Positions 11,963 through 44,875 of a DNA stretch of 64,000 nt are shown here, one piece after another. Numbering within the stretch: the stretch's first letter is position 1; every line of letters begins with the position of its first letter. The notes beneath the pieces were generated by a model that saw nothing but the letters and a program-made list of their open reading frames with translations, ran no database searches and was not told the origin of the DNA. Source of the stretch: Leisingera daeponensis (lineage in GTDB: Bacteria; Pseudomonadota; Alphaproteobacteria; Rhodobacterales; Rhodobacteraceae); NCBI RefSeq assembly GCF_019801465.1, contig NZ_JAHVJA010000008.1, positions 124,001 to 188,000 on the forward strand, written 5' to 3'. The position numbers were made by a program, and so were the translations under genes.

Positions 11963-12021
11963 GTTAACCCTTTCTTCACGCATAAGTTCAGCTGATGCAG
12001 GATGTGCCGGATTGCCCCGGC

Positions 12022-12065
12022 ACCCCCTGTGCACCCCCCGTACACCCCCTGTGCACCCCCTTGGT
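12022..12065 (+). repeat. Four 11-bp tandem repeats before the FAD-GcvT gene
   Basis: Four head-to-tail copies of ACCCCCTGTGC, with the second copy varying as ACCCCCCGTAC and the last as ACCCCCTTGGT, lie 50-93 bases ahead of the FAD-GcvT start. The period matches about one DNA helical turn. No protein explains it, although the dehydrogenase frame happens to stay open through it. Confidence 0.75.
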
Positions 12066-12114
12066 GCCTTTTGCCGCAATTCCCGCGCTTTGCCCCGGAC
12101 CTGAGGACAAACCC

Positions 12115-18696: not shown

Positions 18697-18774
18697 CGGA
18701 ATCTCTTTCCTGCCCATGTCCCGAACATGGGCAGGACTGAACGTTGTAAATACCCGGAAAATCGGAGTGATGTC

Positions 18775-19800
18775 ATGTCGACAACGGGTCTTTCTTGCAA
18801 AAATGTCTGGAAAGTCTACGGTGCCAGTGCTGAGCGTGAATACGCACGGCTTTCCAGCCAGTATGATGATCCAGCTGCTTTGAGCAGCGCTTTGCGGCAA
18901 GCCGGGCAGATTGTCGCTGTCGGTGGCGTCAGTTTTAATGTCGCTCCGGGTGAGATGTTCGTGATTATGGGGCTTTCCGGTTCGGGCAAGTCTACGGTCG
19001 TTCGCTGCCTGACGCGGCTGATTGAGCCTTCCGACGGCGAAGTGTCGCTGGACGGCGCCAATTTGCTGGCGATGTCAAATTCGGACCTGATGGAAGTCCG
19101 CCGCAAGAGGTTCGGAATGGTGTTCCAGCATTTCGGCCTGATGCCCCATCTGAGCGTCCTGGACAATATTTGCCTGCCGATGCGGATCCAGGGCGCGGAC
19201 CCGGCCAGGACCGTCGAACGCGCGCGCGAAGTCATCGATCTGGTCGGTCTCAACGGCCGTGAAAACAATTACCCGCGCCAGCTGTCCGGCGGACAGCAGC
19301 AGCGGGTCGGCATTGCGCGGTCCCTGGCAATCGATCCGCAGGTTTGGTTCCTGGATGAACCGTTTTCGGCGCTGGACCCATTGATCCGCCGGCAAATGCA
19401 GGACGAATTCCTGCGGCTGCAACGCACTCTGAAAAAGACCATCGTCTTTATCACCCATGACTTTCTCGAAGCGCTGAAGCTGGCCGACCGGGTAGCGATC
19501 ATGAAGGATGGAGAGGTGGTTCAAATCGGAACACCTGCCGATCTCGTGCTGCGCCCGGTCAACGGCTATGTGCGCGAGTTTACGGAGGACGTGCCACGGG
19601 CCAAGGTTTTGACGGCGGGGGATATCGCCGAGCCCGGCAAAGCCGGAAACGGCATGACAGTGCAGGCAAATGACTGCCTTGATGATGTCATGCATGCGTT
19701 CGAGAACGGTGCAGACGGCGCGAATGTCGTGGCGCCGGATGGCACGATGGTCGGGCGCCTTACCGCGCGAAACATTATCCACGCGCTGTCGGAGCACTGA
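18775..19800 (+). CDS. Choline/betaine ABC transporter, ATP-binding protein
   Basis: A 341-residue ATPase of the ProV/OpuAA type. Walker A GLSGSGKST is at 66-74, the signature LSGGQQQR at 170-177 and Walker B VWFLDEP at about 190-196. The extended N-terminus before the ATPase core (about 1-45) and the C-terminal single CBS-like segment (about 290-341; MTVQANDCLDDVMHAF to RLTARNIIHAL) are typical of osmolyte importers, though full OpuA proteins have two CBS repeats and this one appears to have only one. ATG 18775 follows a CGGAG ribosome site. The gene ends one base before the permease start. Confidence 0.9.
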   Translation: MSTTGLSCKNVWKVYGASAEREYARLSSQYDDPAALSSALRQAGQIVAVGGVSFNVAPGEMFVIMGLSGSGKSTVVRCLTRLIEPSDGEVSLDGANLLAMSNSDLMEVRRKRFGMVFQHFGLMPHLSVLDNICLPMRIQGADPARTVERAREVIDLVGLNGRENNYPRQLSGGQQQRVGIARSLAIDPQVWFLDEPFSALDPLIRRQMQDEFLRLQRTLKKTIVFITHDFLEALKLADRVAIMKDGEVVQIGTPADLVLRPVNGYVREFTEDVPRAKVLTAGDIAEPGKAGNGMTVQANDCLDDVMHAFENGADGANVVAPDGTMVGRLTARNIIHALSEH

Positions 19801-19801
19801 G

Positions 19802-21874
19802 ATGCGGGCCTCTAACTCTGAATTTCCGCTCCGCAACAAGCTTTTGATCGGCGGCTTTTCAATGTCCCTGATCGTTCTGGCCGCGGCCTTTCAAATTTCA
19901 TGGCTGCGTACATTTCCTGCGGCTTTGACAGTCCCGCTGACCGACTGGCTGGGCGCTTTCTTTGCCGCATTGGCTGAGTTCAAGGCCCCATTTCGGGCCT
20001 TGGCGGCGGCGGCAAAGTTCATGATGGAAGCGGTGCGGGACGTGCTTGCTGCCATTCCCTGGCCAGTTCATGTGATTGCCGCCGTCCTGGCCGCCCACCG
20101 GGCGTCAGGGCGCAGGCTGGCAGTCTTTGCGGTTCTCACCTACGCCTATACGCTGGGCACTGGGAAGTGGGACGCCACACTGAACACTTTGGCGCTGGTG
20201 ATCGTCGCCGTTCCATTCGCATTGATGGTTGGCTTCATCATGGGCACCCTGGCGGCAAAGTCGGATCGTGCCCGCGCTATCGTCGAGCCGTTCCTTGACC
20301 TGATGCAGACGGTCCCAGCCTTCGCCTACCTGGTTCCTGCGATGCTTTTGCTGGGGTTTGGCCCGCAAGTGGGTCTCGTAGTGAGCGTGATTTATGCTGC
20401 GCCTCCGATGGCGCGGAACGTGATGCTGGGCCTGCGGCGGGTGCCCTCCGAACAGATCGAAGCTTCCCTCATGATGGGGATGACGCCGCGCCAGAGGTTC
20501 TTCCAGGTAGAGATGCCCGCGTCGATTTCGCAGCTGGCCGTGGGCATTAACCAATGCGTGATGGCGACCTTTGCCATGGTCATCATTGCCTCGGTCATCG
20601 GTGGCTTCAATGATATCGGCTGGGAAGTGTCTGGAAACTACCGGCGGCAGGTTCTCGGCGCAAGTTTCGAGGCCGGAATAGTGGTCACCTTGTTTGCCAT
20701 CCTGATCGACCGGACCGGGAACGGCTTCACCAGGCTTGCACTGCTGTCTGAAGCCGGAAAGGGCAAGCCGGGCAGCACCGCGCATCTGAAAGCCGGCGCC
20801 ATCCTGATAATCGCTGCACTCCTCCTGTCTGTCTGGGTGGAAGCCTTCCGGGTATTTCCTGAAACCATTCGCTTCGGTGTCGCCGAGATGATCAATGCCC
20901 TGATGGATCAGGTGCTGCATAGCTTTGGCCCAACACTGAAGGCGATCAAATCAAAGTTCGTAATCTTTTTCATGAAGCCGCTGGAGGCCGGGCTGGTGAC
21001 TGCGGTCACCCCGATGTTCTGGGGATTTGCCCTGACGCCTCCGGTTATCGCCGGGTATTTCATCAGCGCCAGTGCTGCTGCCGTCTTGTTCATGCGCCGC
21101 GGCAGGACCGGGGCCGCAATTGGTATCCTCTCAATCGCAGTGCTGGTTTTCTTTGGCATGAACGGGGTGCCATGGCCGGTCTGGTTCATCATGGCGGCAC
21201 TGGCAGCGGAACGGCTGGCAGGGCGCCGAACTGCCTGTTTTGTTGTCTTTACACTGGCATTCATCCTGTTGAACGGCCTGTGGGACAAAGCAATCTTTTC
21301 AATGTCTCTGGTTACTTCGGCAATCTTCGTGTCCGTCGCCATCGGCTTGCCGGTCGGCGTGCTGGCCTCGATGAACCGGCCCTTTGCGATAGTGGTGCGC
21401 TCAGTCAATGACTTCCTGCAAAGCGTGCCGGTCTATGTCCTCCTGATCCCGCCGCTCTGGCTGTTCAGGACGTCGGAGTTTGCCTCGATGCTGGCTATTG
21501 TGGCCTACGCCATCGTGCCGTGCATCCGCTACACCTACGAAGGCCTGCTGAACACCCCGGACAACACGCTGGAAGCGGCCAGATCCATGGGAATGACGCG
21601 CTGGCAGATCCTGTTACGGGTCAAAATCCCCATGGCTGTCCCGGCTATCATGCTGGGCGTCAACCAGACCATCCTATTCAGCCTGGCGATGCTGGTGATT
21701 GCGGCGCTCATCACAACCCGCGGCTTGGGGCAGCAAATCTATACCGCGCTTGGCCAGCAGGATCCCGGCCTTGGCATTGTTGCAGGACTTTGCATAGCGC
21801 TCATCGCCATGTCGATGGACCGCATACTGCAAGGCTGGGCAGCGGAAAAGAAGCAAGCATTGGGGCAGGAATGA
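19802..21874 (+). CDS. Choline/betaine ABC transporter, double-domain permease
   Basis: A 690-residue membrane protein containing two BPD_transp_1 permease units in one chain. The first unit (about 100-320) carries an EAA loop near EASLMMGMTPRQRFFQVEMP; the second (about 480-690) carries EAARSMGMTRWQILLRVKIP. Both therefore look competent to contact the ATPase. Ordinary ProW/OpuAB permeases are 280-350 residues with one unit and act as homodimers, so this gene is an internal fusion of two divergent units. It starts one base after the ATPase stop and overlaps betA by an ATGA. Confidence 0.88.
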   Translation: MRASNSEFPLRNKLLIGGFSMSLIVLAAAFQISWLRTFPAALTVPLTDWLGAFFAALAEFKAPFRALAAAAKFMMEAVRDVLAAIPWPVHVIAAVLAAHRASGRRLAVFAVLTYAYTLGTGKWDATLNTLALVIVAVPFALMVGFIMGTLAAKSDRARAIVEPFLDLMQTVPAFAYLVPAMLLLGFGPQVGLVVSVIYAAPPMARNVMLGLRRVPSEQIEASLMMGMTPRQRFFQVEMPASISQLAVGINQCVMATFAMVIIASVIGGFNDIGWEVSGNYRRQVLGASFEAGIVVTLFAILIDRTGNGFTRLALLSEAGKGKPGSTAHLKAGAILIIAALLLSVWVEAFRVFPETIRFGVAEMINALMDQVLHSFGPTLKAIKSKFVIFFMKPLEAGLVTAVTPMFWGFALTPPVIAGYFISASAAAVLFMRRGRTGAAIGILSIAVLVFFGMNGVPWPVWFIMAALAAERLAGRRTACFVVFTLAFILLNGLWDKAIFSMSLVTSAIFVSVAIGLPVGVLASMNRPFAIVVRSVNDFLQSVPVYVLLIPPLWLFRTSEFASMLAIVAYAIVPCIRYTYEGLLNTPDNTLEAARSMGMTRWQILLRVKIPMAVPAIMLGVNQTILFSLAMLVIAALITTRGLGQQIYTALGQQDPGLGIVAGLCIALIAMSMDRILQGWAAEKKQALGQE

Positions 21875-23490
21875 AACCCGCAATTTATGACTACATCATC
21901 GTGGGCGGCGGCTCGGCGGGCTCGGTCCTGGCCAGCCGCCTGTCGGAAAACCCGTCCTGCCGCGTTCTGTTGCTGGAAGCGGGCGGTCGGAACAGCAGTT
22001 TTTTCACTCAGATGCCCATGGCTCTTGGCATGGCGCTTCGGCGTCGGCGGTTCAATTGGATGTACGAGACCGATCCCGAACCGCATCTGAACAACCGCCG
22101 CTTGGACTGCCCGCGCGGGCGGGGGCTCGGGGGCTCGTCGGCGGTCAACGGCATGGTCTATTTGCGTGGTCAGCCCGAGGATTTTGAAGCCTGGCAAAAG
22201 ATCGCAGGTGACAGCTGGTCCTGGGATTCTGTTGCCGGGTATTTCAGGAAGGCCGAAAACTACTCGGACCGCTCGGCGCCGGGTATGGGACAATCCGGCC
22301 CGCTGCACGTGACCAAGCCCAATGGGCTTGATCCGCTTTCGAATGCGTTTCTTGAGGCAGGGGCACAGGCCGGCCATGCCGTTCACGACACCTTTAACAG
22401 GGGCTCCAGTATCGGAGTAGGCCGTTTCGACGCTACGATCCACAAGGGCTATCGCTGGAGCACTGCCCGCGCCTATTTGACGAAGGAGGTGCGCCGCCGC
22501 CCGAATTTGACCATCCGGCTGAACGCCCAGGCAGACCGGATCGAGCTCGACAAGGGGCGGGCCTCTGCAGTGCACCTGGCCGGGGGCGAAAGGATCGCCG
22601 CCGCACGGGAAATCATCCTTTCCGCGGGCGCGATCAGCAGTCCCAAGCTCCTGTTGCAGTCCGGCATTGGCCCAGCCGGGCAGCTGCGCTCTGTTGGCAT
22701 AGAGCCGCAACATGACCTTTCGCAAGTCGGGCAGAACCTGACCGACCACGTTGATGTCTACGTGCAGTATTCCTGCCACCAGCCGGTTTCTCTTTATCCT
22801 GCGTCGACGCCGCTGGGAATGTTGCGCGCCGGGGCCGAGTGGTTCCTGTTCAAATCCGGGATCTGTGCATCGAACAATTGGTCGGTGGGTGCGTTTCTGC
22901 GAAGTTCGGACAAGGACGCTGCCCCAGAAATCGAAATGGAGTTCTTCCCGATGGCGGTGTCATTCGATGGCGCCTCGAGGATCAAGGGGCATGGTTTCCA
23001 GGTTGCAGTCGGGCCGTGCCGGAGCAGGTCGCGGGGGAGCGTCACGCTGGCGTCCGCGGACCCGCGGGAACCGCCAAGGATTGCCTTCAACTACATGAGC
23101 GACCCGGAAGATTGGCGCAAGGTCAGGGCTGGCGTGCGGCTTGCGCGGGAAATCTTCGCCCAGCCGGCATTTGACCGGTTCCGGGGAGAGGAGCTTTCAC
23201 CCGGGGCGCATGTTCAAACAGATGATGAGATCGATTGCTTCGCGGCGGATGAGATCAATTCTGTCTATCACCCGTGCGGCACCTGCCAGATGACGGCCAA
23301 TGGTACCGGCGTAGTTGATCCGCGGTTGCGGGTCGAGGGACTGCACGGTCTGCGTGTTGCCGATGCCTCGGTGTTCCCGGAAATCACCCGCGCCAATATC
23401 AACGCACCGGTCATCATGGTGGCAGAGCGCGCTGCAGATTTCATTCAGCAGGACAACTTGCCGGCCTCGGCCGCGCCCGCCAAACAATAG
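21871..23490 (+). CDS. betA: Choline dehydrogenase-type GMC oxidoreductase
   Basis: A 539-residue GMC-family flavoprotein. The FAD-binding motif GGGSAG is at 12-17 and the second GMC signature [15 protein letters not shown] is in mid-protein; the catalytic histidine lies in YHPCGTCQM near residue 470, and the C-terminal [16 protein letters not shown] is typical of BetA. It should oxidise choline to betaine aldehyde using the respiratory chain. ATG 21871 overlaps the permease stop. It is followed 11 bases later by the betaine aldehyde dehydrogenase gene, so import and both oxidation steps are in one operon. Other primary alcohols remain possible substrates. Confidence 0.87.
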
Positions 23491-23501
23491 GAGTATTCAG
23501 C

Positions 23502-24965
23502 ATGCCAATTCAGCCTCAAGCCAGCCACTACATCGGCGGCCGGTATATCGAAAATGAAACCGGGGAGCCGATCGACAGCCGTTTTCCGGCCACTGGGGAA
23601 GTGATTGCTACCGTGCGCGCCGCCGATGCCGCCATCGTTGACCAGGCGGTTGCCGCTGCCAGGAAGGGCTATGAGGAATGGTCAGCCATGTCGGGTGCCG
23701 ACCGGGGCCGTGTGCTGTGCGCGGCGGCGCGCATTTTGCGTGACCGGAACGAAGAACTGGCAATGCTTGAGACCATGGACACAGGGCGGCCTCTTCAGGA
23801 AACGCGTGTGGCCGATGCCGCTTCGGCGGCGGACTGCCTGGAGTTTTTTGGCGGCATGGCGGATAAGATCCGCGGCGAACAGATCAGTGGAGAAGAGGGT
23901 TTTATCTATACCCGCCGCGAACCTTTCGGTATCTGCGCAGGGATCGGAGCCTGGAACTACCCGATCCAGAACGCGGGCTGGAAGGCTGCTCCGGCGCTTG
24001 CGTGCGGCAACGCCATGATTTTCAAACCCTCCGAGACAACACCGCTCTCAACTCTGAAACTCGCCGAGATTCTGACTGAGGCAGGCGCGCCTGACGGTGT
24101 TTTCAACGTCATTCAGGGACGCGGTAAGACGGGCCAGCTGCTGGCTGAGCATCCGGGCGTGGAAAAAGTGTCATTCACCGGTTCGGTGCCGACCGGCCTG
24201 AAAGTGAATGCCTCCGCCGCTTCGCAGTTGAAGCACACGACAATGGAATTGGGCGGCAAGTCCCCGCTAATCGTCTATGACGATGCGGATATTGAAAGCG
24301 CCGTTATCGGAGCCTTGCTGGGGAACTTCTACTCAACCGGGCAGGTCTGCACCAATTGCACTCGTGTCTATGTGCATGAAACGGTGATGGACCAGTTCCT
24401 GGCGCAGCTTTCAGAAATGACACGCCGCATCAGAATCGGTGATCCCCGCGATCCGGAAACCCAGATGGGGCCTCTGGTATCAGATACGCAGCTTGCGGCA
24501 GTCATGTCCTATATCGAAGCTGGCAAGGCGGAGGGCGCTCACCTGTTCCTGGGTGGCGGGCGTCCGGCCTTGCCGGGACTGGAGGATGGCAGTTTCATTG
24601 AGCCCACGATTTTCACCGGCGTGCGCGATGAAATGCGTATCGCGCGGGAAGAGATCTTCGGCCCGGTTATGTGCGTCATGTCCTTTGCCGGCGACGAAGA
24701 AGTCATAGAGCGCGCCAACAACACGGCATTCGGGCTTGCGGCCGGTGTGTTCACCAAGGATCTGCGCCGCGCCCACCGGACGGCAGACCGTCTTCAGGCG
24801 GGTATCTGCTGGATCAACAACTTCAATGTCTACACAGTGCAACCCCCTTTCGGAGGCTTCAAAAAGTCGGGTATCGGACGGGAAAACGGCTTCGCCGCGA
24901 TTGAGTATTACTCCCAGGTCAAAACTGTTTTCGTGCATTTGGAGCCGCTCGCCCCGGCGTATTGA
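23502..24965 (+). CDS. betB: Betaine aldehyde dehydrogenase
   Basis: A 487-residue NAD(P)-dependent aldehyde dehydrogenase, length as in BetB. Asn152 (AWNYPIQN), catalytic Glu249 (TMELGGKSP) and nucleophile Cys283 ([10 protein letters not shown]) are all present. The extra cysteine three residues after the nucleophile, where many BetB proteins have glycine, may affect redox sensitivity. It converts betaine aldehyde to glycine betaine. It closes the transporter-betA-betB operon, and its product would feed the demethylation genes at 10.4-14.6 kb. Confidence 0.9.
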
Positions 24966-25542: not shown

Positions 25543-27132
25543 ATGCAGACCCTTACCACCAACCCGCCGCAGGCCCGGTACCGCAAACTCGATTTTGCTG
25601 GCCTGTCCACTGTTTCACTGGAGGGCGAGCACTTCCTGCGTGTCAGCAGCGAGCTGCTCCGCCAGCTGACAGAAGAGGCGTTTGCGGACGTTTCGCACCT
25701 GCTGCGCACATCCCATCTGGCCCAGTTGAGGGCGATCCTTGAAGATCCGGACGCATCGGACAATGATCGCTACGTGGCGCTGGAGCTGCTCAAAAACGCG
25801 GTGATTTCGGCGGAACGGGAATTTCCCAGCTGCCAGGACACCGGCACGGCGATTGTTGCCGGCAAGAAGGGCCAGAACGTTCTGGTCAGCGGTGACGCGC
25901 GGGCCGCCGTCGAGCAGGGCATTGCCCGGACGTGGAGCAAGCGCAACCTGCGGTTCTCGCAGATGGCGCCGCTGGATATGTTCACGGAACAGAATACCGG
26001 GACCAACCTGCCGGCACAGATCGACATCGAAGCGGTATCCGGCGACACTATGGAATTGCTTTTCATGGCCAAGGGCGGCGGGTCGGCCAACAAAACTTTC
26101 CTGTTCCAGGAAACCCGGCGCCTGCTGGAGCCGGAGCGGCTGCGCGCCTTTTTCGACGAGAAGATCCGCACCCTCGGCACCACTGCCTGCCCGCCGTATC
26201 ACCTGGCCTTCGTCATCGGCGGGCTGTCCGCCGAGCATTGCCTGAAAACCGTCAAGATGGCTTCCGCCCGCATGCTCGACGATCTGCCGACCAGCGGCAG
26301 TCCGGACGGCCGCGCCTTCCGCGATCTGGACGCGGAGGAGATGATCCTCGCCCTGACCCGCGATCTGGGCCTCGGGGCGCAGTTTGGCGGCAAGTATTTC
26401 TGCCATGACGTTCGGGTGATCCGGCTGCCGCGCCATGGCGGCAGCCTGCCGGTGGGCATGGGGGTCAGCTGTTCGGCCGACCGGCAAATCCGGGCGCGGA
26501 TTGACCGCGAAGGCGCCTGGCTGGAAGAGCTGGAGCGCGATCCGGCCCGGTTCCTGCCCGAGGGAGAGTTCGCCTCGGCGGCGGCGGTCCATATCGACTT
26601 GGACCAGCCGATGGGGGCGATCTGTGCCGCGCTGTCGGATATCCCAGTCTCGTCACCGGTACTACTGTCGGGAACTATGATCGTGGCGCGGGACCTGGTT
26701 CATGCCGAGCTTGCGCGACGGATCGCTGACGGCAAGCAGCTGCCGGACTACGTTCTGAACCACCCGGTCTATTATGCCGGTCCGGCAAAAACACCCGAGG
26801 GCCATGCATCCGGATCCTTCGGCCCGACAACTGCCACTCGCATGGACCCTTACGTGGCGGACCTGCAGGCGCGCGGTGCCAGCCGGGTGATGATCGCCAA
26901 GGGCAACCGCTCCCGGCAGGTGATCGACAGCTGCAAGGCAAACGGCGGTTTCTACCTGGGGTCAGTGGGCGGCGCTGCAGCGGTGCTGGGGCGTGACGTT
27001 ATCAAGCAGATCGAGGTGATCGACTTTCCCGAATTCGGCATGGAGGCGGTGCATCGCATTCGGGTTGAAAACTTTCCAGCCTTTGTGATTATTGACGACA
27101 AAGGCGGCGACTTCTTCACGCGCCGGCCGTAA
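25543..27132 (+). CDS. Class I (4Fe-4S) fumarate hydratase family, probable mesaconase
   Basis: A 529-residue class I fumarase. The three cluster cysteines of E. coli FumA (105, 224, 318) align with Cys97, Cys216 and Cys310, all offset by eight, so the Fe-S cluster should form. The C-terminal beta domain with the KGNRS motif is intact. Class I fumarases also hydrate mesaconate to (S)-citramalate, and mesaconate-using proteobacteria keep such a gene beside CaiB- and CitE-type genes. Here it is grouped with methylaspartate ammonia-lyase, which makes mesaconate, so a mesaconase role is strongly suggested; ordinary fumarase activity cannot be excluded. TTG 25507 is an alternative start; no clear ribosome site marks ATG 25543. 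Confidence 0.85.
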   Translation: MQTLTTNPPQARYRKLDFAGLSTVSLEGEHFLRVSSELLRQLTEEAFADVSHLLRTSHLAQLRAILEDPDASDNDRYVALELLKNAVISAEREFPSCQDTGTAIVAGKKGQNVLVSGDARAAVEQGIARTWSKRNLRFSQMAPLDMFTEQNTGTNLPAQIDIEAVSGDTMELLFMAKGGGSANKTFLFQETRRLLEPERLRAFFDEKIRTLGTTACPPYHLAFVIGGLSAEHCLKTVKMASARMLDDLPTSGSPDGRAFRDLDAEEMILALTRDLGLGAQFGGKYFCHDVRVIRLPRHGGSLPVGMGVSCSADRQIRARIDREGAWLEELERDPARFLPEGEFASAAAVHIDLDQPMGAICAALSDIPVSSPVLLSGTMIVARDLVHAELARRIADGKQLPDYVLNHPVYYAGPAKTPEGHASGSFGPTTATRMDPYVADLQARGASRVMIAKGNRSRQVIDSCKANGGFYLGSVGGAAAVLGRDVIKQIEVIDFPEFGMEAVHRIRVENFPAFVIIDDKGGDFFTRRP

Positions 27133-27145
27133 TTTGAGAGGCGGC

Positions 27146-28090
27146 ATGGGGCGTGACGAAACCAAAATCACACTGCGGCAACTGGAGATCTTCCTTGCTG
27201 CGGTAGAGCATCGCAGCTTTGCCAAGGCCGCACGGCAGTTGGGGCTGACCGCCTCGGCGGTTTCGATGCAGATGCAGAACCTGGGCAGCGAACTGGGGGT
27301 GCCCTTGTTCGAGAAAGACGGCCGCTCGATACGGCCAACGGCCATCGCGACTGCCGTCCTGCCCTACGCCGAACGCATGACCGCAACCCTGAATGAAGCA
27401 GTTGAAGTGGTTCGCGGACTGCAGGGAGAGATGGACAACCGGGTGCGCGTCGCCATGGTGTCCACCGCGCGCAACTTCGGGCCGCATTTGGTACAGGCCT
27501 TCCAACAGACCCACCCGGATACCGAGGTGCATGTCTCTATCCACAACCGGCGCGGCGTCATTGCGGCCCTGGAAAACCGGCAGATCGACATCGCGCTCAT
27601 GGGGCGCACACCTCGGCGGGTGGAAGTCGAGGCCCACCGCTTTGCTGCGCACCCTTATGTGCTCGTTGCGTCCCCGAAACATCCGCTCACCCGGTTCCGG
27701 AAGATCCACCGCAGTGATCTTGTGGCCCACAAGTTTCTTGTCCGCGAGCCCGGATCAGGAACGCGCATGGTGCATGAGCATTTCTTCCAGAGTGCGGAGC
27801 TGCCTCTGCCACCCGCACAGGAAATGGACAGCAACGCCAATATCAAACAGGCGGTCATGGCCAACATGGGTCTGGCGTTTATTTCGGCGCACACCATCGC
27901 TCTGGAACTGGCGGCCGGGAAGCTCTGCTTGCTGGATGTGAAGGGCATGCCGGAACTGCGTGACTGGTACGTGCTGCACCCTAAGGGAGCAGTGCTGGGC
28001 CGGGCCGCGCAGATGTTCCGCGATTTTGTCAGTCAGGAAGGACCTGGCTTCATGCAGGAATTTTTTGAAGCCTTGCCGCTTCCAACATAG
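27146..28090 (+). CDS. LysR family regulator of the methylaspartate/mesaconate cluster
   Basis: A 314-residue LysR regulator of CbbR-like appearance. The helix-turn-helix is in about residues 7-65 (LRQLEIFLAAVEHRSFAKAARQLGLTASAVSMQMQNL), followed by the periplasmic-binding-like effector domain. It begins 13 bases after the fumarase/mesaconase stop and converges on the CitE-type gene, overlapping its 3' end by 41 bases. This position between the two halves of the pathway makes it the likely pathway regulator, with mesaconate, citramalate or a CoA ester as possible effector. Confidence 0.87.
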   Translation: MGRDETKITLRQLEIFLAAVEHRSFAKAARQLGLTASAVSMQMQNLGSELGVPLFEKDGRSIRPTAIATAVLPYAERMTATLNEAVEVVRGLQGEMDNRVRVAMVSTARNFGPHLVQAFQQTHPDTEVHVSIHNRRGVIAALENRQIDIALMGRTPRRVEVEAHRFAAHPYVLVASPKHPLTRFRKIHRSDLVAHKFLVREPGSGTRMVHEHFFQSAELPLPPAQEMDSNANIKQAVMANMGLAFISAHTIALELAAGKLCLLDVKGMPELRDWYVLHPKGAVLGRAAQMFRDFVSQEGPGFMQEFFEALPLPT

Positions 28091-28907
28091 CCCGGGCGCG
28101 CTGCGCGACGGGTGGGTCCACCATTTCACCGTCCACCATCACGGCACCGCGCCCTGCAGCCTCAAAAGCAGAAAGAATCCGCCGGGCATGGGCCAATTCC
28201 GCCTCATCCGGCTGGAAGGCCTTATTGGCCAGCGCGACTTGCACGGGATGGATGCAAAGGATCCCGTTCATTCCGAGCGCGCGGGCGCGGGTGGCAGCAG
28301 CCTCAAAGCGAGCCCGGTCCTGAACATGGCCGATGCTGTCAGGCAGACCGACAGCCTCCAGTCCGGCGGAGCGGGCCGCCCAGACCAGTTGCTGGCAGGG
28401 CGCTGTCAGCGACTCGGGCGTGGGGTCATGTCCGCAGGCGTTGCTGAAGTCCTCGGTACCAAGGGCAAGCGCCCTCATGCGTGGCGTTGCCTTGGCAATC
28501 GCGGGCAGGGCCTGAAGCGCAAAGGCGGATTCGACCAAGGCAATCAGCCCGATCCCGCGCAGAGGCAAATTCACTTGCGCTTCCAGCGCCAGAAGATAAT
28601 CGTCAATCCAGACCATCTGCCCCGGGCTTGCGGCCTTTGGTACTATCAGTGCCGAAACTCCCGGCAGAGCGGCGGCTTCCAAATCCCTTGAGCAGGCTCC
28701 GAGTCCGGAGTTGACGCGGACAACAATCTGCAAACCAAACTGTGCAAGATGCGCAACTGCCCCCGGCAAGGCCTCTCGCGCAGCCTGCTTTTCTGCTTCG
28801 GGCACGCTGTCTTCGAGGTCCAGAATAACCGCATCCGCGCCACGCTCCTGCGCGCGCAGCACGAATTTCTCCTGATGTGCAGGGACGAAAAGCATAGATC
28901 GGGTCAA
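28050..28907 (-). CDS. CitE-type lyase, probable citramalyl-CoA lyase
   Basis: A 285-residue HpcH/HpaI-CitE family TIM-barrel protein. The N-terminus MTRSMLFVPAHQEKF, the metal-binding segment AVILDLEDSVPEAEK and ALALGTEDFSNACG are typical of stand-alone CitE-like lyases that cleave CoA esters. With a class I fumarase and CaiB-type transferase at hand, (S)-citramalyl-CoA to acetyl-CoA plus pyruvate is the expected reaction; beta-methylmalyl-CoA or malyl-CoA are alternatives. No other citrate lyase subunits (CitD, CitF) are present, which argues against citrate lyase. It overlaps the preceding CaiB-type gene by 4 bases and the convergent lysR by 41. Confidence 0.84.
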   Translation of the reverse strand: MTRSMLFVPAHQEKFVLRAQERGADAVILDLEDSVPEAEKQAAREALPGAVAHLAQFGLQIVVRVNSGLGACSRDLEAAALPGVSALIVPKAASPGQMVWIDDYLLALEAQVNLPLRGIGLIALVESAFALQALPAIAKATPRMRALALGTEDFSNACGHDPTPESLTAPCQQLVWAARSAGLEAVGLPDSIGHVQDRARFEAAATRARALGMNGILCIHPVQVALANKAFQPDEAELAHARRILSAFEAAGRGAVMVDGEMVDPPVAQRARAMLEAARLQKIPA

Positions 28908-30064
28908 GCCGGCACCGCCTCTGCCGCAAATTCCGCGCGGATCATTTCGCTGTGCTCACCCAGCCTTGGCACGGCGCCAAACCGCGGATTTGCAGGCGCA
29001 AAACTATGGCGCACGGGGGCCGCGACCAGTTCGACCTCTTCGCCGCTTTCCAAAGTCACGGGTGTCCGCCGCAATTGCGGATGCCGGGAGAAATCCTCGA
29101 CTGAGTTTACCCCTCCATAGGCAATCGTTGCCTGGTGCAACAACCGCTCCAGTTCTGCACGGCCGTGGCGCGCAAAATGCGCGGTGACCCAGGCGTCAAG
29201 CGTCGGCCGGTTGGCCACGCGGGCGGCAGCATCGCAGAACCTTGGATCAGTGGCCATCTCAGCTTCGCCGAAGACATCGGCGCAGAGCCGCACCCATTCC
29301 CGCTCGTTCTGGATTGAGATGGCCAGCATCTGCCCGTCGGCGGTGCGGAACCCGCCATAGGGTGCAATGGAGGGGTGATGCATGCCGACCGGTTCGGGCG
29401 CCTTGCCCCCATAGACCGCATGCATGAGCGGCACGGTCATCCAGTCGGCCGCAGTGTCGAAAAGCGAAATCTTCACCGAGCTGCCTTCGTCCGTCTGCGC
29501 GCGGGCAATCAATGCCTGCTGGATACCGATGACCGCATTCATGCCGGCCCCGATATCGCAGACCGACACACCGATCCGCCCCGGATGGCCCGGCGCGCCG
29601 TTGACGGAAACCAGCCCGCTCTCGCACTGCACGAGGAAGTCATAGGCCTTCATCTCGGAATAGGCGCCCTCTTCTCCATAACCCGAAATATCGCATGTGA
29701 TGAGCCGCGGATTGCGCGCGCGCAGCACCCCCGCATCAAAGCCCGCGCGGGCAATTGCACCGGGGGCAAGGTTCTGGATAAAGACATCGGCGCGGTCGAG
29801 GATCCGGTGCAGCAGCGCCGCGTCATCGGCATCCTTGATGTCCAGGCACAGGCTTTCCTTGCCGTGGTTGGCCCAGACGAAATAGGACGCCTCGCCCTTG
29901 ACCGCCTTGTCGTATTCCCGGGCGAAGTCCCCGCTGTCGCGTTCGATCTTGATGACCCGCGCGCCCCCTTCGGCAAAGTGGCACGAGGCCAGCGGCGCCG
30001 CGACAGCCTGTTCCAGGGACACGACCAGCAGGCCCTCATATGGCTTGCAAGTGCGCTGTGTCAT
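28904..30064 (-). CDS. Family III CoA-transferase (CaiB/BaiF), probable citramalate CoA-transferase
   Basis: A 386-residue CaiB/BaiF protein. The catalytic aspartate of the family is Asp170 in GVSVCDIGAGMNAVIG, and the start VVSLEQAVAAPLASCHFAEGGARVIKIE is the family's CoA-binding N-terminus. Such enzymes move CoA between carboxylates, often from succinyl-CoA. Between methylaspartate ammonia-lyase/mesaconase and a CitE lyase, activation of (S)-citramalate to citramalyl-CoA is the most coherent role. Activation of mesaconate itself, as in the methylaspartate cycle of haloarchaea, is the main alternative. Its start overlaps the ammonia-lyase end by 29 bases. Confidence 0.84.
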   Translation of the reverse strand: MTQRTCKPYEGLLVVSLEQAVAAPLASCHFAEGGARVIKIERDSGDFAREYDKAVKGEASYFVWANHGKESLCLDIKDADDAALLHRILDRADVFIQNLAPGAIARAGFDAGVLRARNPRLITCDISGYGEEGAYSEMKAYDFLVQCESGLVSVNGAPGHPGRIGVSVCDIGAGMNAVIGIQQALIARAQTDEGSSVKISLFDTAADWMTVPLMHAVYGGKAPEPVGMHHPSIAPYGGFRTADGQMLAISIQNEREWVRLCADVFGEAEMATDPRFCDAAARVANRPTLDAWVTAHFARHGRAELERLLHQATIAYGGVNSVEDFSRHPQLRRTPVTLESGEEVELVAAPVRHSFAPANPRFGAVPRLGEHSEMIRAEFAAEAVPA

Positions 30065-31310
30065 TCCGGGCCTCCTTTGCCTTGGAAATTGTCAGAATCC
30101 GGCTCATTTCATTGGCAACGATCGTCATGCCCTCGTCGAACCCCATGCCGGGCTTCACCAGCACCCTGTCGGGGCGGGTCGCAAAGGCGGCATGCAAGCA
30201 GGCGCGGGCCGAGCCGTCGGTCTCGTTGCAGGTGCCGCCCTGGTAGGCATCCACGCCGGTGCCCTTGCAATAGAGCACCGCGTCAACGGTATTGTGGAGC
30301 GAGCCCAGGTCCGGTGTCTTGATCTGCACCATGTCGCAACACTCCGCATCGACAAAATCGACCACATCGGCAACGGTGTTGCACCATTCGTCGGCCACGA
30401 TCTTCACGGTGCTGCCCCGCGCCTGCAGCGCGGCGCGCAGCTGCCCGAGCAGGTCCATCTGGCCTTGTTTCGACCCGGCGTCGCAGGGGCCCTCGATATA
30501 GAGATCGAAGGGGGCTGCCCGCGCTTCGAGCAGGCACAGGTAATCCGCCATCTGCTGCGGATCGTTGCCGAAAATCTGGCCAATGGTTCCGTAGACGTCG
30601 ATATGGATCTTCGGACGATAGGCGGTGTCGGCGCGCAGGGCCTCGATCCGCTGGGCCAGCCAGGTCACATATTCGGCGAGCTTGCCGCCGCTCTGCCCCA
30701 GTTTCTGCGGGACATTATTGATCAGCCCGTGCGGCAGGGCCGCAACCTGCCGCAGCACCATCTTGTCAACGCTGCTGTAACGGTCATCGCCGCTCTGGCC
30801 GAACAGGGGCAGCGGCTGCAGGACGCGCGGCAACTGCCATTCGTCGCAGATCACCTCGTATTTCTGCCGCCCGGTGGCAAGGGCTGTGGCCTCCAGCAGG
30901 GCCTGGCTGACGCCGTAGCGGATTGCCGTGTGCAGCCGGGCGCCCTCCGCCTCCAGCGCATCGAACCGCTGCACCGTCTCGCGGAACCGGGTAACGTCGC
31001 AGCCGGTCAGCAAAGGCGCCAGATGTTCCTGCATCAGGGGAATGAAACGGGCGGCCGTGAACAGCGGGTCGCGCCCGCCCGCGCCTGAGTACTGCACCGC
31101 CGCGCAATCGCCCTGCGCCCAAAGCCCGTTTTCCAGCTCCAGCAGAACGGAAACCGCCTCGCCCCGCTGGCGGATACTGTCAAAGCCGCCGGTCCGCGCC
31201 GCGCCGCGGTAGACGAACCCGTCCTGCTGCGCACCGTCCTTGATGGCCGCCTGGTCGTCGAAGTAATACGCCGCGTGGCCAGGGGCGAAATGAACACTTT
31301 TGATCTTCAT
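30036..31310 (-). CDS. Methylaspartate ammonia-lyase
   Basis: A 424-residue enolase-superfamily enzyme converting L-threo-3-methylaspartate to mesaconate plus ammonia. Active-site residues known from the clostridial enzyme fall at the same numbers here: His194, Asp238, Glu273, Asp307 and the base Lys331. Family text KIHIDVYGTIG and YIEGPCDAGSKQGQMDLL leaves little doubt. The frame extends to 31478 without family similarity; the ATG at 31310 (MKIKSVHFAPG) with AGGACC upstream is the start. It lies 16 bases after glutamate mutase subunit E and overlaps the CoA-transferase gene. Confidence 0.95.
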   Translation of the reverse strand: MKIKSVHFAPGHAAYYFDDQAAIKDGAQQDGFVYRGAARTGGFDSIRQRGEAVSVLLELENGLWAQGDCAAVQYSGAGGRDPLFTAARFIPLMQEHLAPLLTGCDVTRFRETVQRFDALEAEGARLHTAIRYGVSQALLEATALATGRQKYEVICDEWQLPRVLQPLPLFGQSGDDRYSSVDKMVLRQVAALPHGLINNVPQKLGQSGGKLAEYVTWLAQRIEALRADTAYRPKIHIDVYGTIGQIFGNDPQQMADYLCLLEARAAPFDLYIEGPCDAGSKQGQMDLLGQLRAALQARGSTVKIVADEWCNTVADVVDFVDAECCDMVQIKTPDLGSLHNTVDAVLYCKGTGVDAYQGGTCNETDGSARACLHAAFATRPDRVLVKPGMGFDEGMTIVANEMSRILTISKAKEARNDTAHLQAI

Positions 31311-31326
31311 GGGTAGGTCCTTGGAA

Positions 31327-32781
31327 TCATGCAGCCGGGCGGCCGATAAGCTTGCTGGCGGAAATGGCGCGGACGTCATCCACGACCATGTCAAAGGAGG
31401 CTTCACGCCCTTCCGACGCGGCACGTTCGCCGATCTTGTCGCGGTGGAACGCAAGCACGTCCTTAGGTAGCGGAACATTGCCCGGATCGAAGATGCGCAC
31501 CGCGCCGCGGTTGTCCCGCACCGGGATCAGGCTGCCCGCATTGGCCTGTGCCGGCGCAAAGGGCACATCCATGACCCCCTGTTCGAACGCCAGCACGATG
31601 CCTTGCGCCACGTCGCCCCGGCCCAGCCGGTAGATGCGCCGCATCACGGCATGGACCTCGGCTTCGATGATTTCCGCCTCTTCGGCGATATCAGCAGAGT
31701 CGGGGCGGGCCTGGTCAGCGATCATGTTGACCATCTGCCGGGTCGCCCGGAGACCGGCGATATTGGCCTCAAGCGTCGGCACGCCGCTGGCTTCGTGCGG
31801 TGTCTTCACGATGATCTTGGTGACCCGCGCCTGCCGCGCCGCCAGGGCACCCAGGCAGATCACCGCGGTGGCCTGCGCCTCATCCTCGGGAAAGCCGCCC
31901 ATCCACTGATGGAACACGGTGGACAGCGCGTAATCGTCGTAACCGGCGTCCTGGAAATAGTGATGCGCCAGCTTGCGCAAGGACCGCATGGCGGCAATGT
32001 CCTGAACCATGTTCCCGGCCTGGCCGTAGCCCAGCGTAAGGCAGCGAACCCCCTGCTCCAGCGCCAGCAGCCCCTCGACGATGGCTACTACATGGCTGAC
32101 AAAGGGCGGCACAAGCGTGCCGGTCAGCGGGCCGAACGGCTCCCGGTTGATGCGGATGCCATGTTCTTCGTAGCGGCCGACCAGCCGGTCGCAGTATTGC
32201 CAGTGACGGATCGAGTCCTGCAGGGGCACAGTTTTGGCATAAGGAATGTTGTAGGAAATCCCGCCGCCTTCGTAGCTGGAGAAACCGGCTGACAAGGTGA
32301 TCTCGGCCAGCAGCCGCGCATCCGGGGTGCCGTGGCGCACCTGAATAGGTTTGTCGACGGCATCGACAAGCGTTGCGCAGCCGTCGACGCCATGGTTGAC
32401 GGCGGGAAACCCGTTCAGCAGCGATGTGCCGACAGCGCGCGAGCGGTCAATCCCGGTCTGCGCATCCTCGTACCGGTTCAGGCGCGTATAGGCGTCCACC
32501 GTGGTGGGCAGCAGATCGCAATGCGGGCTGAGCCCATTCATCAGCGCAGTATGTTCGCGCAGCAGGGCAACGCCGGCCCGGGGCTGCAGCAGCGTGCGGC
32601 CCTCGGCGTGCGCCTGCGCCAGGGCCGCCGAGAACCGTTTGCTTTCGGGCAGACTCTGCTGCCGGGCAACACCGGCGCCGAAATCCACGGCTGCGCCAGT
32701 CGGCCAGCTTTGCAGAACGCCGCGGCGTTCTGCGGCAAACGCATCATCGGAAAGACGCGTGTTGGCAATTTCTGGGGTCAC
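31327..32781 (-). CDS. Glutamate mutase (methylaspartate mutase) epsilon subunit
   Basis: A 484-residue TIM-barrel catalytic subunit of adenosylcobalamin-dependent glutamate mutase, which converts L-glutamate to 3-methylaspartate by radical carbon-skeleton rearrangement. Length and text (RQQSLPESKRF, QPRAGVALLREHTALM, VRHGTPDARLLAEI, GGGISYNIPYAKTVPL, TLGYGQAGNMVQDIAA) match GlmE/MutE. It follows the small B12-binding subunit by 15 bases and precedes the ammonia-lyase, giving the pathway order mutase then lyase. Function needs a supply of adenosylcobalamin. Confidence 0.95.
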   Translation of the reverse strand: MTPEIANTRLSDDAFAAERRGVLQSWPTGAAVDFGAGVARQQSLPESKRFSAALAQAHAEGRTLLQPRAGVALLREHTALMNGLSPHCDLLPTTVDAYTRLNRYEDAQTGIDRSRAVGTSLLNGFPAVNHGVDGCATLVDAVDKPIQVRHGTPDARLLAEITLSAGFSSYEGGGISYNIPYAKTVPLQDSIRHWQYCDRLVGRYEEHGIRINREPFGPLTGTLVPPFVSHVVAIVEGLLALEQGVRCLTLGYGQAGNMVQDIAAMRSLRKLAHHYFQDAGYDDYALSTVFHQWMGGFPEDEAQATAVICLGALAARQARVTKIIVKTPHEASGVPTLEANIAGLRATRQMVNMIADQARPDSADIAEEAEIIEAEVHAVMRRIYRLGRGDVAQGIVLAFEQGVMDVPFAPAQANAGSLIPVRDNRGAVRIFDPGNVPLPKDVLAFHRDKIGERAASEGREASFDMVVDDVRAISASKLIGRPAA

Positions 32782-32796
32782 TGTTCCGGTCCTTGC

Positions 32797-33279
32797 CTAA
32801 CGAGCATCCAGGAAAGGCGCGCCGGTATCGAAAGCCGCCGAGTTATGCCCCAGCTGCGGCACCCGGCGCAGGTCGATGTCCCGGCGCAGCCCGGCGATCA
32901 TCTCGGCCAGATTGACGCTTGGCCGGAACACCCGGTCATAGCCCATGTCCAGGAACAGCGCCTCGACCTCCTTCCAGTCCTTCTTGCCGATCACCAGATT
33001 GCCGCCGGCATAGAGCACGATGTCGCCGGCGCCGCGTTCCTCGCAGCGTTCGCGCATCCCGGCGCAGTCGATCTCGCCGTGGCCGTAGATCGAAGACACA
33101 AGGATGGCATCGGCGCCTTCGCCAACCGCCGCGGTGACGAATTCCTCCTGGCTGACCATCACCCCGAGGTTGACCACCTTGATCCCGGCATCACTCAGGG
33201 CCCTGTCCAGAATGCGGTTGCCGACCACATGGCAATCCGAACCGATAACCCCGAGGATCACCTTGTACCCCTGTTCCAT
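32797..33279 (-). CDS. Glutamate mutase sigma (B12-binding) subunit
   Basis: A 160-residue cobalamin-binding subunit. The base-off/His-on motif DxHxxG is Asp15-Cys-His17-Val-Val-Gly20, followed further on by the GG of YAGGNLVIG that contacts the nucleotide loop. The upstream frame (to 33348) lacks similarity, so the ATG at 33279 with GGGAGC ahead is chosen. It is the first gene of the minus-strand operon mutS-mutE-ammonia-lyase-CoA-transferase-lyase. No MutL-type reactivating protein follows, unlike in clostridial operons. Confidence 0.93.
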   Translation of the reverse strand: MEQGYKVILGVIGSDCHVVGNRILDRALSDAGIKVVNLGVMVSQEEFVTAAVGEGADAILVSSIYGHGEIDCAGMRERCEERGAGDIVLYAGGNLVIGKKDWKEVEALFLDMGYDRVFRPSVNLAEMIAGLRRDIDLRRVPQLGHNSAAFDTGAPFLDAR

Positions 33280-37070: not shown

Positions 37071-39206
37071 TTAGAAGTCAGCTTGAACGGCAACAACAAA
37101 GCTGCGACCAGGCTGAGCAACCCGGCCGATGGGGCTCACATCAACACCGCGGGTGTAATAATCCTCATCAAAGAGGTTGTTGATCGCTGCGGTAAGGCGG
37201 ACATTCCGGTTGGATATGCCGAGTTCCTTGGATGCCTGCAGGTTCCACACCCACGCAGACGGCAGAGGGCCTGCTGAGCCATCGGCCGTTTCAACCTGCG
37301 TATTGGCGGCGTCACTGAAAGCAGCACTGCGGTAGTGGCCATTGAGGCCGAAGGCCCAGCTGTCCAGCTCGTACTCAGCCGCCACATTGAACTGATGGTC
37401 CGAGGCGTAGGGCACTTCATTGCCCGCAAATTGCCCCGAAAGCTGCTCGGTATCGGTCAACGTGTAATTCGCCTTAAGCGACAAGCCCGGCACGGTATAG
37501 GGCTGCCACGCGGCGGTCAGTTCAACGCCCTGGTGGCGAGTCTCGCCCAGGTTCTGGAACTGCAGGCTGGAGCGGTCAAACTCGATCTGGTCGGAGAAAT
37601 CGATCCGGAACAGCGCAGCACTGAGGCTGATGTCCGAGGTTGGCTCATAGCGCATCCCCAGTTCGTAATTCCACGCCAGTTCGTTGCTGACCGGCGCGCC
37701 GCGGGTCACCTGCGCAACCTGCGGAACGCGCAGGGACTTGTTGGCATTGGCGAACAGGAAAACGCTGTCCGAGGCCTGAAAGCCAACCGCCAGGCCAGGC
37801 AGGAGCTCGGTGGTGCGGTTGCCCGACGCAGTATTGTTGATGCGGTCGCTGAAATCGGTTTCGACGGATTCGTAGCGCAGGCCGGGGGTGATCTCCAGCC
37901 GGTCATTCATCAGCGAAACCGTGTCGCTAATGTAAGCAGCATAGGCGTCGGTTTTGAAGTACCAGTCCCGTGCGGCCGTGGTGGAGCCGGTGGCGAGATT
38001 GGTGCGGTCGACGGCGAAATCGACCTCTTCGCGCACGTATCGCGCCCCGACCACCAGCTTGTGCGAAGCATTGCCGGTGTGGAACAGATGCGTGTAGCGC
38101 GGTTCGGTGCCGTACACTGTGAATTCGCGCGGGCTGCTGGCCACGTCGGTTGCCGGGGTGTCCGGGTCGAACGGCTGGCCGAAATCGAAGGTCCGGTCCG
38201 ATTTATGCGCGAAGTTTACCCAATGAAATTCCCCGTTGCTTCCGATCTGGCGGTCATAGGTCAGCGAGGCGCGCAGGGTTTTTGCATCGAAGGCATCATG
38301 CGGGCGCGTTGATTGGCTCGGATCCTGTTCGTAGGCCTGTGGCGACAGTGCCCCGGGCAGTTCCGCGTCCACATCGTAATACTGCAGGCGGCCCTTCAGG
38401 CTGCTCTGGTCATCAATCAGCCACTCACCATCAACCATGACGTTCAGGACATCGGTTCCGGAATGCTCCCGGCCGCCGTTGCCAGTCACGGCGTTGACCT
38501 GCGCCTGAAGACCGAAATCGGGAGACACGAAGCCGCCCCACCGGAAGTAGGTGTCGCTCAGCAGATTGCCGGTGCGTTCATCCACGATGAATTTCTGCTT
38601 GGCGGTGCCGGAGAGCTCTTGCGGGATCGGCTTGCTGATCAGATCGATCACACCGCTCACATTGTTCGGGCCGAAACGGACAGCGCCGCCGCCGCGGACG
38701 ATGTCGGCCCGGGCGATCGTTTCCAGGCTGGCCGGAAACAGCGAGAGCCCGGTCCCGGTGTAAGGCGCCAGCGCCAGCGGGATACCGTCCAGCAGCATCA
38801 TGACCCGCTCGCTGCGCAGCGGGTTGAGGCCGCGGATCCCGATGTTGGGCAGTACGCCGGTGCCGGTCTCGTCTTCGACACGGACGCTGGGAACCTTGCG
38901 CAGCGCATCGTCCAGCGTCCGGTTGCCCTGCTGGTGGAGGTCCTTTTCAGACAGGATATCACGTGCGCCCGGGTAACGCTTGACCTCTACTTCCGTGGAA
39001 TCGCCGAGCCAGCTGCCGTCGACAGTTATGGCTTCCAGTTCCAGGACTTCGGCGTCCGTCTGATTGGCTGATTGCGCATGCAGAGCCGCCGGCATCCCCA
39101 GGCTTGCGGCTGAAAGCATTAGAAGTCCCAAGGTGCTGACTGGTGAGCCAAGAGACCGCTCTGGCCGTATGTAAGTATTTCCTGCGTGAGTGGTTCGCAT
39201 TTTCAT
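37071..39206 (-). CDS. TonB-dependent ferric-siderophore/citrate receptor (FecA-like)
   Basis: A 711-residue outer-membrane receptor. A signal peptide (about 1-45, long n-region, ending ALHAQS) is followed by the plug domain (about 65-180; NRTLDDALRKVPSVRVEDETG, NIGIRGLNPLRSERVMMLLDGIPLALAPY) and a 22-strand barrel ending in Phe (SFVVAVQADF). The plug text is closest in style to FecA. ATG 39206 sits close behind GAGGA; ATG 39200 is an alternative. It is divergent from a FecBCDE-type ABC importer, forming a complete outer-to-inner-membrane uptake path for a ferric chelate. No FecI/FecR signalling genes are present and no N-terminal signalling domain is seen. Confidence 0.9.
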   Translation of the reverse strand: MKMRTTHAGNTYIRPERSLGSPVSTLGLLMLSAASLGMPAALHAQSANQTDAEVLELEAITVDGSWLGDSTEVEVKRYPGARDILSEKDLHQQGNRTLDDALRKVPSVRVEDETGTGVLPNIGIRGLNPLRSERVMMLLDGIPLALAPYTGTGLSLFPASLETIARADIVRGGGAVRFGPNNVSGVIDLISKPIPQELSGTAKQKFIVDERTGNLLSDTYFRWGGFVSPDFGLQAQVNAVTGNGGREHSGTDVLNVMVDGEWLIDDQSSLKGRLQYYDVDAELPGALSPQAYEQDPSQSTRPHDAFDAKTLRASLTYDRQIGSNGEFHWVNFAHKSDRTFDFGQPFDPDTPATDVASSPREFTVYGTEPRYTHLFHTGNASHKLVVGARYVREEVDFAVDRTNLATGSTTAARDWYFKTDAYAAYISDTVSLMNDRLEITPGLRYESVETDFSDRINNTASGNRTTELLPGLAVGFQASDSVFLFANANKSLRVPQVAQVTRGAPVSNELAWNYELGMRYEPTSDISLSAALFRIDFSDQIEFDRSSLQFQNLGETRHQGVELTAAWQPYTVPGLSLKANYTLTDTEQLSGQFAGNEVPYASDHQFNVAAEYELDSWAFGLNGHYRSAAFSDAANTQVETADGSAGPLPSAWVWNLQASKELGISNRNVRLTAAINNLFDEDYYTRGVDVSPIGRVAQPGRSFVVAVQADF

Positions 39207-39585
39207 GTTCCTCGTTCCGATCGAAATTCGCATCCGGAAGAACTGCTTGCAGGAGTTAGTCAGCGCATTCTTTGCGTCGGCCGGCACCCGTGAGCATGGG
39301 GCGGCCGGCAGGTCTCTCTGTCTTTTGCTTGGCTGTATTCGCCGCGGTTCACATGGTCCTGATGCAACCGGGCTTGACGGGCTGCCGCTTGGCTGGGTCC
39401 CGGCTCTCATAGGTGGCAGCCCCCGCGCCGTCAATCCTGACAAAAAAACTTTTTTACAGGCTGCTAATGGCCGTGCGCGCCCGCGGATATTCTGCACAAC
39501 AGCATTTCCGACAAAAAGACTTTGACGGCGGATGGCCTTGCCTGTAACTGCAGCAGCCATCAGCCAGCCCCCCGGCGAGCCAGAT
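39207..39585. promoter_or_regulatory. Divergent promoter region of receptor and ferric ABC genes
   Basis: About 380 bases between the divergent receptor and binding-protein genes, including an unusual A7-C-T6 tract at 39442-39455. An iron regulator site is expected here, but I could not identify a clear Fur, Irr or RirA motif by eye. Confidence 0.5.
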
Positions 39586-44872: not shown

Positions 44873-44875
44873 CTC

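Follow-up and report, generated by a model that had tools for sequence, protein, structure and literature searches.

The window analyzed here is a stretch of 64,000 nucleotides from Leisingera daeponensis. Seven uninterrupted open reading frames (ORFs), located at positions 25543-33279, encode the two subunits of a glutamate mutase (GlmS and GlmE), a methylaspartate ammonia-lyase (MAL), a class I fumarase, a CaiB-type CoA-transferase, a CitE-type lyase, and a LysR-type regulator, and probably form a catabolic methylaspartate route. In the order of the DNA, they are as follows:

25543..27132, plus strand: single-chain class I (Fe-S) fumarase of the FumA type, proposed mesaconase, the sole class I fumarase of the genome (Pfam/NCBIfam, alignment).
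27092..28090, plus strand: LysR-type regulator, proposed regulator of the cluster, recurring in related clusters; its start is uncertain, TTG being listed (Pfam/NCBIfam).
28050..28907, minus strand: stand-alone CitE/HpcH-HpaI lyase, proposed (S)-citramalyl-CoA lyase (Pfam/NCBIfam, alignment).
28904..30064, minus strand: CaiB-type CoA-transferase (Pfam/NCBIfam, alignment).
30036..31310, minus strand: MAL (Pfam/NCBIfam, alignment).
31327..32781, minus strand: glutamate mutase epsilon subunit GlmE, with a GTG start (Pfam/NCBIfam, alignment).
32797..33279, minus strand: glutamate mutase sigma subunit GlmS, B12-binding, with no MutL gene between it and GlmE (NCBIfam, alignment).

An earlier note on this DNA had placed these seven genes in the same interval, and both the ORFs and the family models confirmed the assignment. 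The cluster ends that it gave correspond to the ATG of the fumarase gene (25543) and the ATG of glmS (33279). The domains detected were Fumerase and Fumerase_C, a LysR helix-turn-helix and substrate domain, HpcH_HpaI, CoA_transf_3, MAAL_N/C, and MutE. The TTG start of the CitE gene at 28907 overlaps the stop codon of the CaiB gene, the two genes sharing four bases, and the MAL and CaiB genes also overlap. The five minus-strand genes thus look like one operon. Since the same order was found in five other Rhodobacterales genomes, the grouping of the seven genes is not due to chance.

We consider it likely that the cluster specifies the conversion of glutamate to acetyl-CoA and pyruvate. An adenosylcobalamin-dependent glutamate mutase (GlmSE) would form 3-methylaspartate, from which MAL would release ammonia, leaving mesaconate. 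The class I fumarase would then hydrate mesaconate to (S)-citramalate, the CaiB-type enzyme would transfer CoA from succinyl-CoA to citramalate, and the CitE-type lyase would cleave citramalyl-CoA into acetyl-CoA and pyruvate, the LysR protein presumably regulating the cluster. The mutase and MAL steps are predicted from family models passed at curated cut-offs. For the last three steps, which we infer as we do the physiology of the route, the basis is family membership, synteny, residues that are conserved, and the repeated use of class I fumarases in such clusters.

For the upper part of the pathway, all three proteins retain motifs of their active sites and passed NCBIfam equivalog models: MAL with TIGR01502 (547 bits, cut-off 286), GlmE with TIGR01503 (699 bits, cut-off 390), and GlmS, which retains the DxHxxG motif, with TIGR01501 (194 bits, cut-off 136). 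MAL aligned without gaps to the clostridial methylaspartase 1kcz and keeps Q172, H194, D238, E273, D307, and K331 at the clostridial numbers, the earlier note having stated as much for five active-site residues; we take these six positions to be the active-site residues of the clostridial enzyme. A second GlmE-like type, 36-43% identical, was also observed in other Pseudomonadota (L025, L026, L027, L030), with longer frames and no MAL match nearby.

The window fumarase passed two general subfamily-domain models and no equivalog cut-off. Its alignment to solved class I fumarases named fumarate hydratase 2 (5l2r, which we take to be the Leishmania enzyme) showed that the three cysteine motifs are all kept, in agreement with the Fe-S cluster ligands previously noticed in the protein, as is a Thr for which one of the solved Leishmania structures, a variant, has Ala. 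In all five Rhodobacterales cluster genomes searched, including that of the window, the cluster copy was the only class I fumarase, and a class II FumC was found over cut-off in each. The presence of FumC and the lack of a second class I enzyme suggest that the window fumarase is probably a dedicated mesaconase. Gemmobacter lanyuensis likewise has a single class I fumarase, the cluster copy (the FumC search covered the five other genomes).

Among 390 genomes of the order, 89 contained a class I fumarase domain, and just five reached 249-254 bits, namely the window's own and four whose proteins are 74-79% identical to it. The same five genomes have GlmE at 658-682 bits; as the fumarase gene is linked to the cluster, this match largely repeats the synteny evidence. 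The remaining class I fumarase matches of the order (167-230 bits) were set apart by score only, and 25 other loci that were fetched encode proteins 28-32% identical to the window's.

E. coli FumA matches the window fumarase at 56% identity, and six enteric FumD-type cluster copies match it at 50-54%. An earlier tree without FumA and FumB had set the Rhodobacterales fumarases next to FumD, but a tree that included both E. coli proteins grouped FumD with FumA/B and ruled out a position of the window protein in the FumD clade. The Rhodobacterales cluster fumarases formed instead a separate clade beside a Pelagibius fumarase (junction 86/85). By these trees, the window fumarase and its Rhodobacterales counterparts are not FumD orthologues, and a preference for mesaconate can thus not be read from kinship. 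As Kronen and Berg (PMC4682846) showed, mesaconate is hydrated by FumA, FumB, and FumD, the last with preference.

The CaiB protein matches family III CoA-transferases, and an Asp that presumably has a catalytic role is kept in all nine clusters aligned, the two rhizobial clusters described below not being part of this set. In CitE, the Arg, Glu, and two Asp positions to which we ascribe catalytic roles are kept in all 11 clusters aligned; narrow residue patterns missed four of nine rows, in which the full alignment shows the residues kept.

The distribution of the cluster was analyzed by a GlmE survey of 390 genomes of the order, 385 of the class, and 398 of the phylum, in samples that overlap and each include the window's own genome. 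GlmE was over cut-off in six genomes of the order, own included (five at 658-682 bits and a sixth, G090, at 420 bits), five of the class, and six of the phylum. We then compared the loci of the best 80 of at least 582 relatives in named genomes, i.e., those nearest to the window's GlmE. The full seven-gene order was present in four of them (Ruegeria sp. R13_0, an uncultured Rhodobacteraceae, G. lanyuensis, and Cochlodiniinecator piscidefendens) and, outside this set, on plasmid p2 of Gemmobacter fulvus. Six genes, CaiB and CitE included, were found without an adjacent fumarase gene in three Gammaproteobacteria (a Marinobacter antarcticus metagenome-assembled genome, IMCC1989, and Pseudomaricurvus). 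The Pelagibius locus has GlmS, GlmE, MAL, and LysR only. In the flanks of the other 72 loci, some of which are shortened by contig ends, nothing matched CaiB or CitE at E 1e-10. The earlier note had named a lack of co-occurrence in related genomes as a finding that would speak against its proposal; the genes do recur together, in the same seven-gene order, in five Rhodobacterales.

The genes also diverge together. For GlmE, GlmS, MAL, CaiB, CitE, and LysR from 11 clusters, pairwise distances correlated whichever two genes were compared (15 pairs, r 0.49-0.94), and 0 to 4 of 2000 permutations reached so high a value; species relatedness contributes too. In a GlmE tree, for which 82 rows were thinned to 34 and which did not include the rhizobial clusters, the Rhodobacterales, Pelagibius, Marinobacter, IMCC1989, and Pseudomaricurvus proteins formed one group (99/99). 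Pelagibius fell within the Rhodobacterales group, which speaks for horizontal transfer. An IS110-family transposase gene at 44034-45224 of the window is a possible mark of mobility.

A separate search covered plasmids only and therefore cannot tell what share of these clusters is chromosomal. In the DNA search, G. fulvus, Rhizobium sullae, and Ensifer adhaerens gave the top three of 256 records, and a GlmE protein search returned 12 records at E 1e-60 or better. CaiB and CitE genes were present on all three plasmids whose annotation was examined (G. fulvus, R. sullae, and E. adhaerens), and the R. sullae plasmid was typed as conjugative. The R. sullae and Ensifer plasmids carry GlmS-MutL-GlmE-MAL-CaiB-CitE-LysR with a class I fumarase gene beside LysR, the product of which is 28-29% identical to the window's. 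Two class I fumarase subfamilies thus adjoin the same mutase, MAL, CaiB, CitE, and LysR genes, which we read as an apparent repeated recruitment of a mesaconase. Alternatively, the rhizobial enzyme may simply be a common local fumarase. Its subfamily is 62-64% identical to the class I fumarases encoded elsewhere in the genomes of the three Gammaproteobacteria. The earlier note had suggested that a CoA-dependent lower half is joined here to the upper half of the clostridial pathway. Comparison supports this view well: the genes recur and diverge together, and in the rhizobial clusters another kind of class I fumarase accompanies the same enzymes.

Several observations weigh against the route from glutamate to acetyl-CoA and pyruvate as we propose it. 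The CaiB protein scored 149 bits with the model of succinyl-CoA:mesaconate CoA-transferase (NF041294, cut-off 700) and 234 bits with that of succinate-glutarate CoA-transferase (cut-off 750), and the best NCBIfam match of CitE was NF038242 (RipC; 148 bits, cut-off 375). Neither protein passes any equivalog cut-off, so that the substrates proposed for them are tentative, and CitE is the least conserved member of the cluster, at 38-52% identity to the window copy. The window fumarase is closer to FumA than to the FumD-type copies and lies outside their group. Fumarases of the rhizobial type, 57-62% identical, are also encoded in the 25 fetched Rhodobacterales loci, so that finding the rhizobial gene beside the cluster may mean less than it first suggests. 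No fumarase gene adjoins any of the three gammaproteobacterial clusters, and Pelagibius has GlmS-GlmE-MAL-LysR with no CaiB, CitE, or fumarase gene nearby; a class I fumarase is encoded elsewhere in all four genomes. GlmE was found in none of three other genomes of the window's genus, and no glutamate transporter was recognized among the genes scanned.

Three other readings of the cluster were considered. An assimilation resembling the methylaspartate cycle of haloarchaea, in which CaiB would activate mesaconate instead of citramalate and form mesaconyl-C1-CoA for the ethylmalonyl-CoA pathway with glyoxylate and propionyl-CoA as products, is in our view improbable. CaiB belongs to the same family as Mct, and crotonyl-CoA carboxylase/reductase (Ccr), an enzyme of the ethylmalonyl-CoA pathway, was over cut-off in seven of 10 genomes (six Rhodobacterales and Pelagibius), but the low score of CaiB with the succinyl-CoA:mesaconate CoA-transferase model argues against this reading, as do the lack of a mesaconyl-CoA hydratase among the seven cluster genes and the three Gammaproteobacteria, which have CaiB and CitE and no Ccr over cut-off. 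A class I fumarase would, moreover, be pointless in such a cycle. The reverse direction, with glutamate made from acetyl-CoA, pyruvate, and ammonia, is very unlikely: a sporadic and partly plasmid-borne distribution fits accessory catabolism, and the histidine-utilization genes beside the G. fulvus cluster already make glutamate.

The latter context also bears on the substrate. On the G. fulvus plasmid, glmS is followed by two formaldehyde-handling genes and then by hutU, hutG, hutH, and hutI (L190, 15191-23081), and the hut pathway ends in glutamate; a Glu/Leu/Phe/Val dehydrogenase gene lies near both rhizobial clusters. Although these contexts are single neighborhoods rather than a count, they argue against the possibility that external mesaconate, methylaspartate, or citramalate is the main substrate and that the mutase does no more than fill or empty the pool. 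So does Pelagibius, which keeps GlmS, GlmE, and MAL without CaiB, CitE, or an adjacent fumarase. We give this possibility only a small chance, even though no glutamate transporter was recognized and a figure legend of PMC4682846 (Fig 2) gives the combination of class I fumarase, CoA-transferase, and lyase as the way in which Burkholderia xenovorans uses mesaconate. A degradation of glutamate through methylaspartate remains the reading that we favor.

The earlier note did not mention that the mutase reactivase, MutL/GlmL, is absent from the cluster. When Citrobacter sedlakii MutL was used as a query against the 80 loci, a match was found in 72, three of which are cut by a contig end, and none in eight (four Rhodobacterales, Pelagibius, IMCC1989, Pseudomaricurvus, and L085). 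L085 is uninformative, since its GlmE begins 331 bases from a contig end. MutL was over cut-off in none of the six Rhodobacterales genomes searched whole, including the window's own and that of G. lanyuensis, and genome-wide searches found none in Pelagibius or IMCC1989. A true MutL is encoded in the Marinobacter genome. In Pseudomaricurvus, a distant relative of MutL (75 bits, over cut-off) is encoded away from the glutamate mutase cluster.

A hidden MutL in the window's own genome was considered and rejected, the sole weak match (23 bits) being a hydantoinase A. The fragment of this protein scored by itself reached 31.3 bits, against a MutL cut-off of 27, over 55 residues common to such ATPases, while hydantoinase models score 118 and 106. 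Sub-cut-off matches were also found in the Ruegeria sp. R13_0 and Cochlodiniinecator genomes. The description of the route as complete therefore holds for the mutase, MAL, fumarase, CaiB, and CitE genes, all of which are present, but not for MutL, which is missing genome-wide at the cut-off used.

The pathway module exists both with and without MutL. In the GlmE tree, MutL-bearing Marinobacter branches closer to the Rhodobacterales group (89/96) than do IMCC1989 and Pseudomaricurvus, and the tree does not fix the order of these two; two or more losses of MutL would be the simpler reading, although the node is not firm. In a post hoc search of all GlmS columns, from which L085 and short rows were left out, 67 of the 71 MutL-bearing rows had Thr at position 54, against none of the nine MutL-free rows, seven of which are close kin. 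Position 54 is a possible MutL contact, to be taken as a lead only. The same applies to a C-terminal GlmS tail with NS, which was present in all seven alphaproteobacterial MutL-free proteins (GHNS in six) and absent from the two gammaproteobacterial ones. The Rhodobacterales mutase may work without a recognizable MutL, either because it is not reactivated or by means of another protein or of cofactor exchange. Tentatively, and with somewhat less than even confidence, we suggest that a complete, partly plasmid-borne CoA-dependent methylaspartate pathway exists in Alpha- and Gammaproteobacteria, in which the Rhodobacterales, Pelagibius, and at least one gammaproteobacterial line run a mutase that needs no MutL. 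The loss of GlmS Thr54 and, in the alphaproteobacterial forms, the GHNS tail would mark this change and may point to the MutL contact and to a replacement mechanism.

The cluster is flanked by choline/betaine genes on one side and by an amidohydrolase gene and a Fec-like iron system on the other. Upstream (11995-14589 and 18727-24965), the window encodes a DAO/GCV_T oxidoreductase, a betaine-type ABC transporter, a choline dehydrogenase, and a betaine-aldehyde dehydrogenase. The earlier note had suggested that amino groups from betaine-type nutrients possibly feed the route. This suggestion, for which the neighborhood is the basis, was not supported. When positions 15001-48000 of the window were compared with nine other loci, the betaine genes were matched, among the matches listed, in two loci and at no more than 31-39% identity, which we take to indicate paralogues (aldehyde dehydrogenase, 37-39% in the Ruegeria (L033) and Cochlodiniinecator (L037) loci; transporter ATPase, 31% in L037). 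Sarcosine-oxidase-like genes occur in the window and near the clusters of L033 and L037, possibly by chance. The genes at 37071-43358 (TonB receptor, binding protein, two permeases, and ATPase) resemble the Fec iron-citrate system; a role in vitamin B12 uptake was rejected, their best matches being Fec iron-citrate models, below the cut-offs of these models. A riboswitch was likewise discarded, since an Rfam scan of the window matched two tRNAs and nothing else.

Among the matches listed in a search of open-access literature, in which subscription journals are mostly uncovered, we found no proteobacterial description of this combination of genes nor of a MutL-free glutamate mutase. In PMC4417242, a Neorhizobium galegae gene table includes a 'putative 3-methylaspartate ammonia-lyase, glutamate mutase' not far from a line for fumarate hydratase, and pieces of the cluster have thus been listed before without comment.

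The cluster shares glutamate mutase, MAL, and a proposed mesaconase step with the methylaspartate pathway of Clostridium tetanomorphum and C. tetani. For the clostridial clusters, PMC4682846 describes MutL, a mesaconase encoded by two genes, and the citramalate lyase complex (CitDEF/CXG), whereas the window cluster has no MutL, a single-chain fumarase, and a CoA-transferase with a stand-alone lyase. No such complex (CitDEF, CXG) was found within the cluster, to which this search was confined and in which all seven genes are assigned otherwise; the CitE protein scored 143 bits with the CitE model of the complex (cut-off 443). Enterobacteriaceae (E. coli O157:H7 and others) have a FumD-glutamate mutase-MAL cluster, with which the window cluster has in common GlmSE, MAL, and a FumA-type class I fumarase; the enteric loci compared have MutL, and nothing in their flanks, as far as these were covered, matched CaiB or CitE. 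The fate of citramalate in enteric bacteria is described as unclear in PMC4682846, and the window cluster offers, in other proteobacteria, a candidate answer to what becomes of citramalate made from glutamate. Natural glutamate mutases that have seemingly lost their reactivase partner may also help to explain directly why B12 radical enzymes exposed to oxygen require such a partner. In addition, the cluster is a candidate module for converting glutamate or histidine to acetyl-CoA and pyruvate, bypassing 2-oxoglutarate dehydrogenase. Mesaconate use by B. xenovorans, in the passages of PMC4682846 available, relies on a class I fumarase, a succinyl-CoA:citramalate CoA-transferase, and a citramalyl-CoA lyase, as proposed here, but starts from mesaconate, with no mutase part described there. 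The haloarchaeal methylaspartate cycle has GlmSE and MAL followed by a succinyl-CoA-dependent CoA-transferase and, according to the portion of PMC5592240 consulted, continues via mesaconyl-CoA hydratase to methylmalyl-CoA, glyoxylate, and propionyl-CoA. The parts are thus known from the clostridial pathway, the enteric FumD clusters, Burkholderia mesaconate use, and the haloarchaeal cycle, and we regard the cluster as a variant of the methylaspartate pathway.

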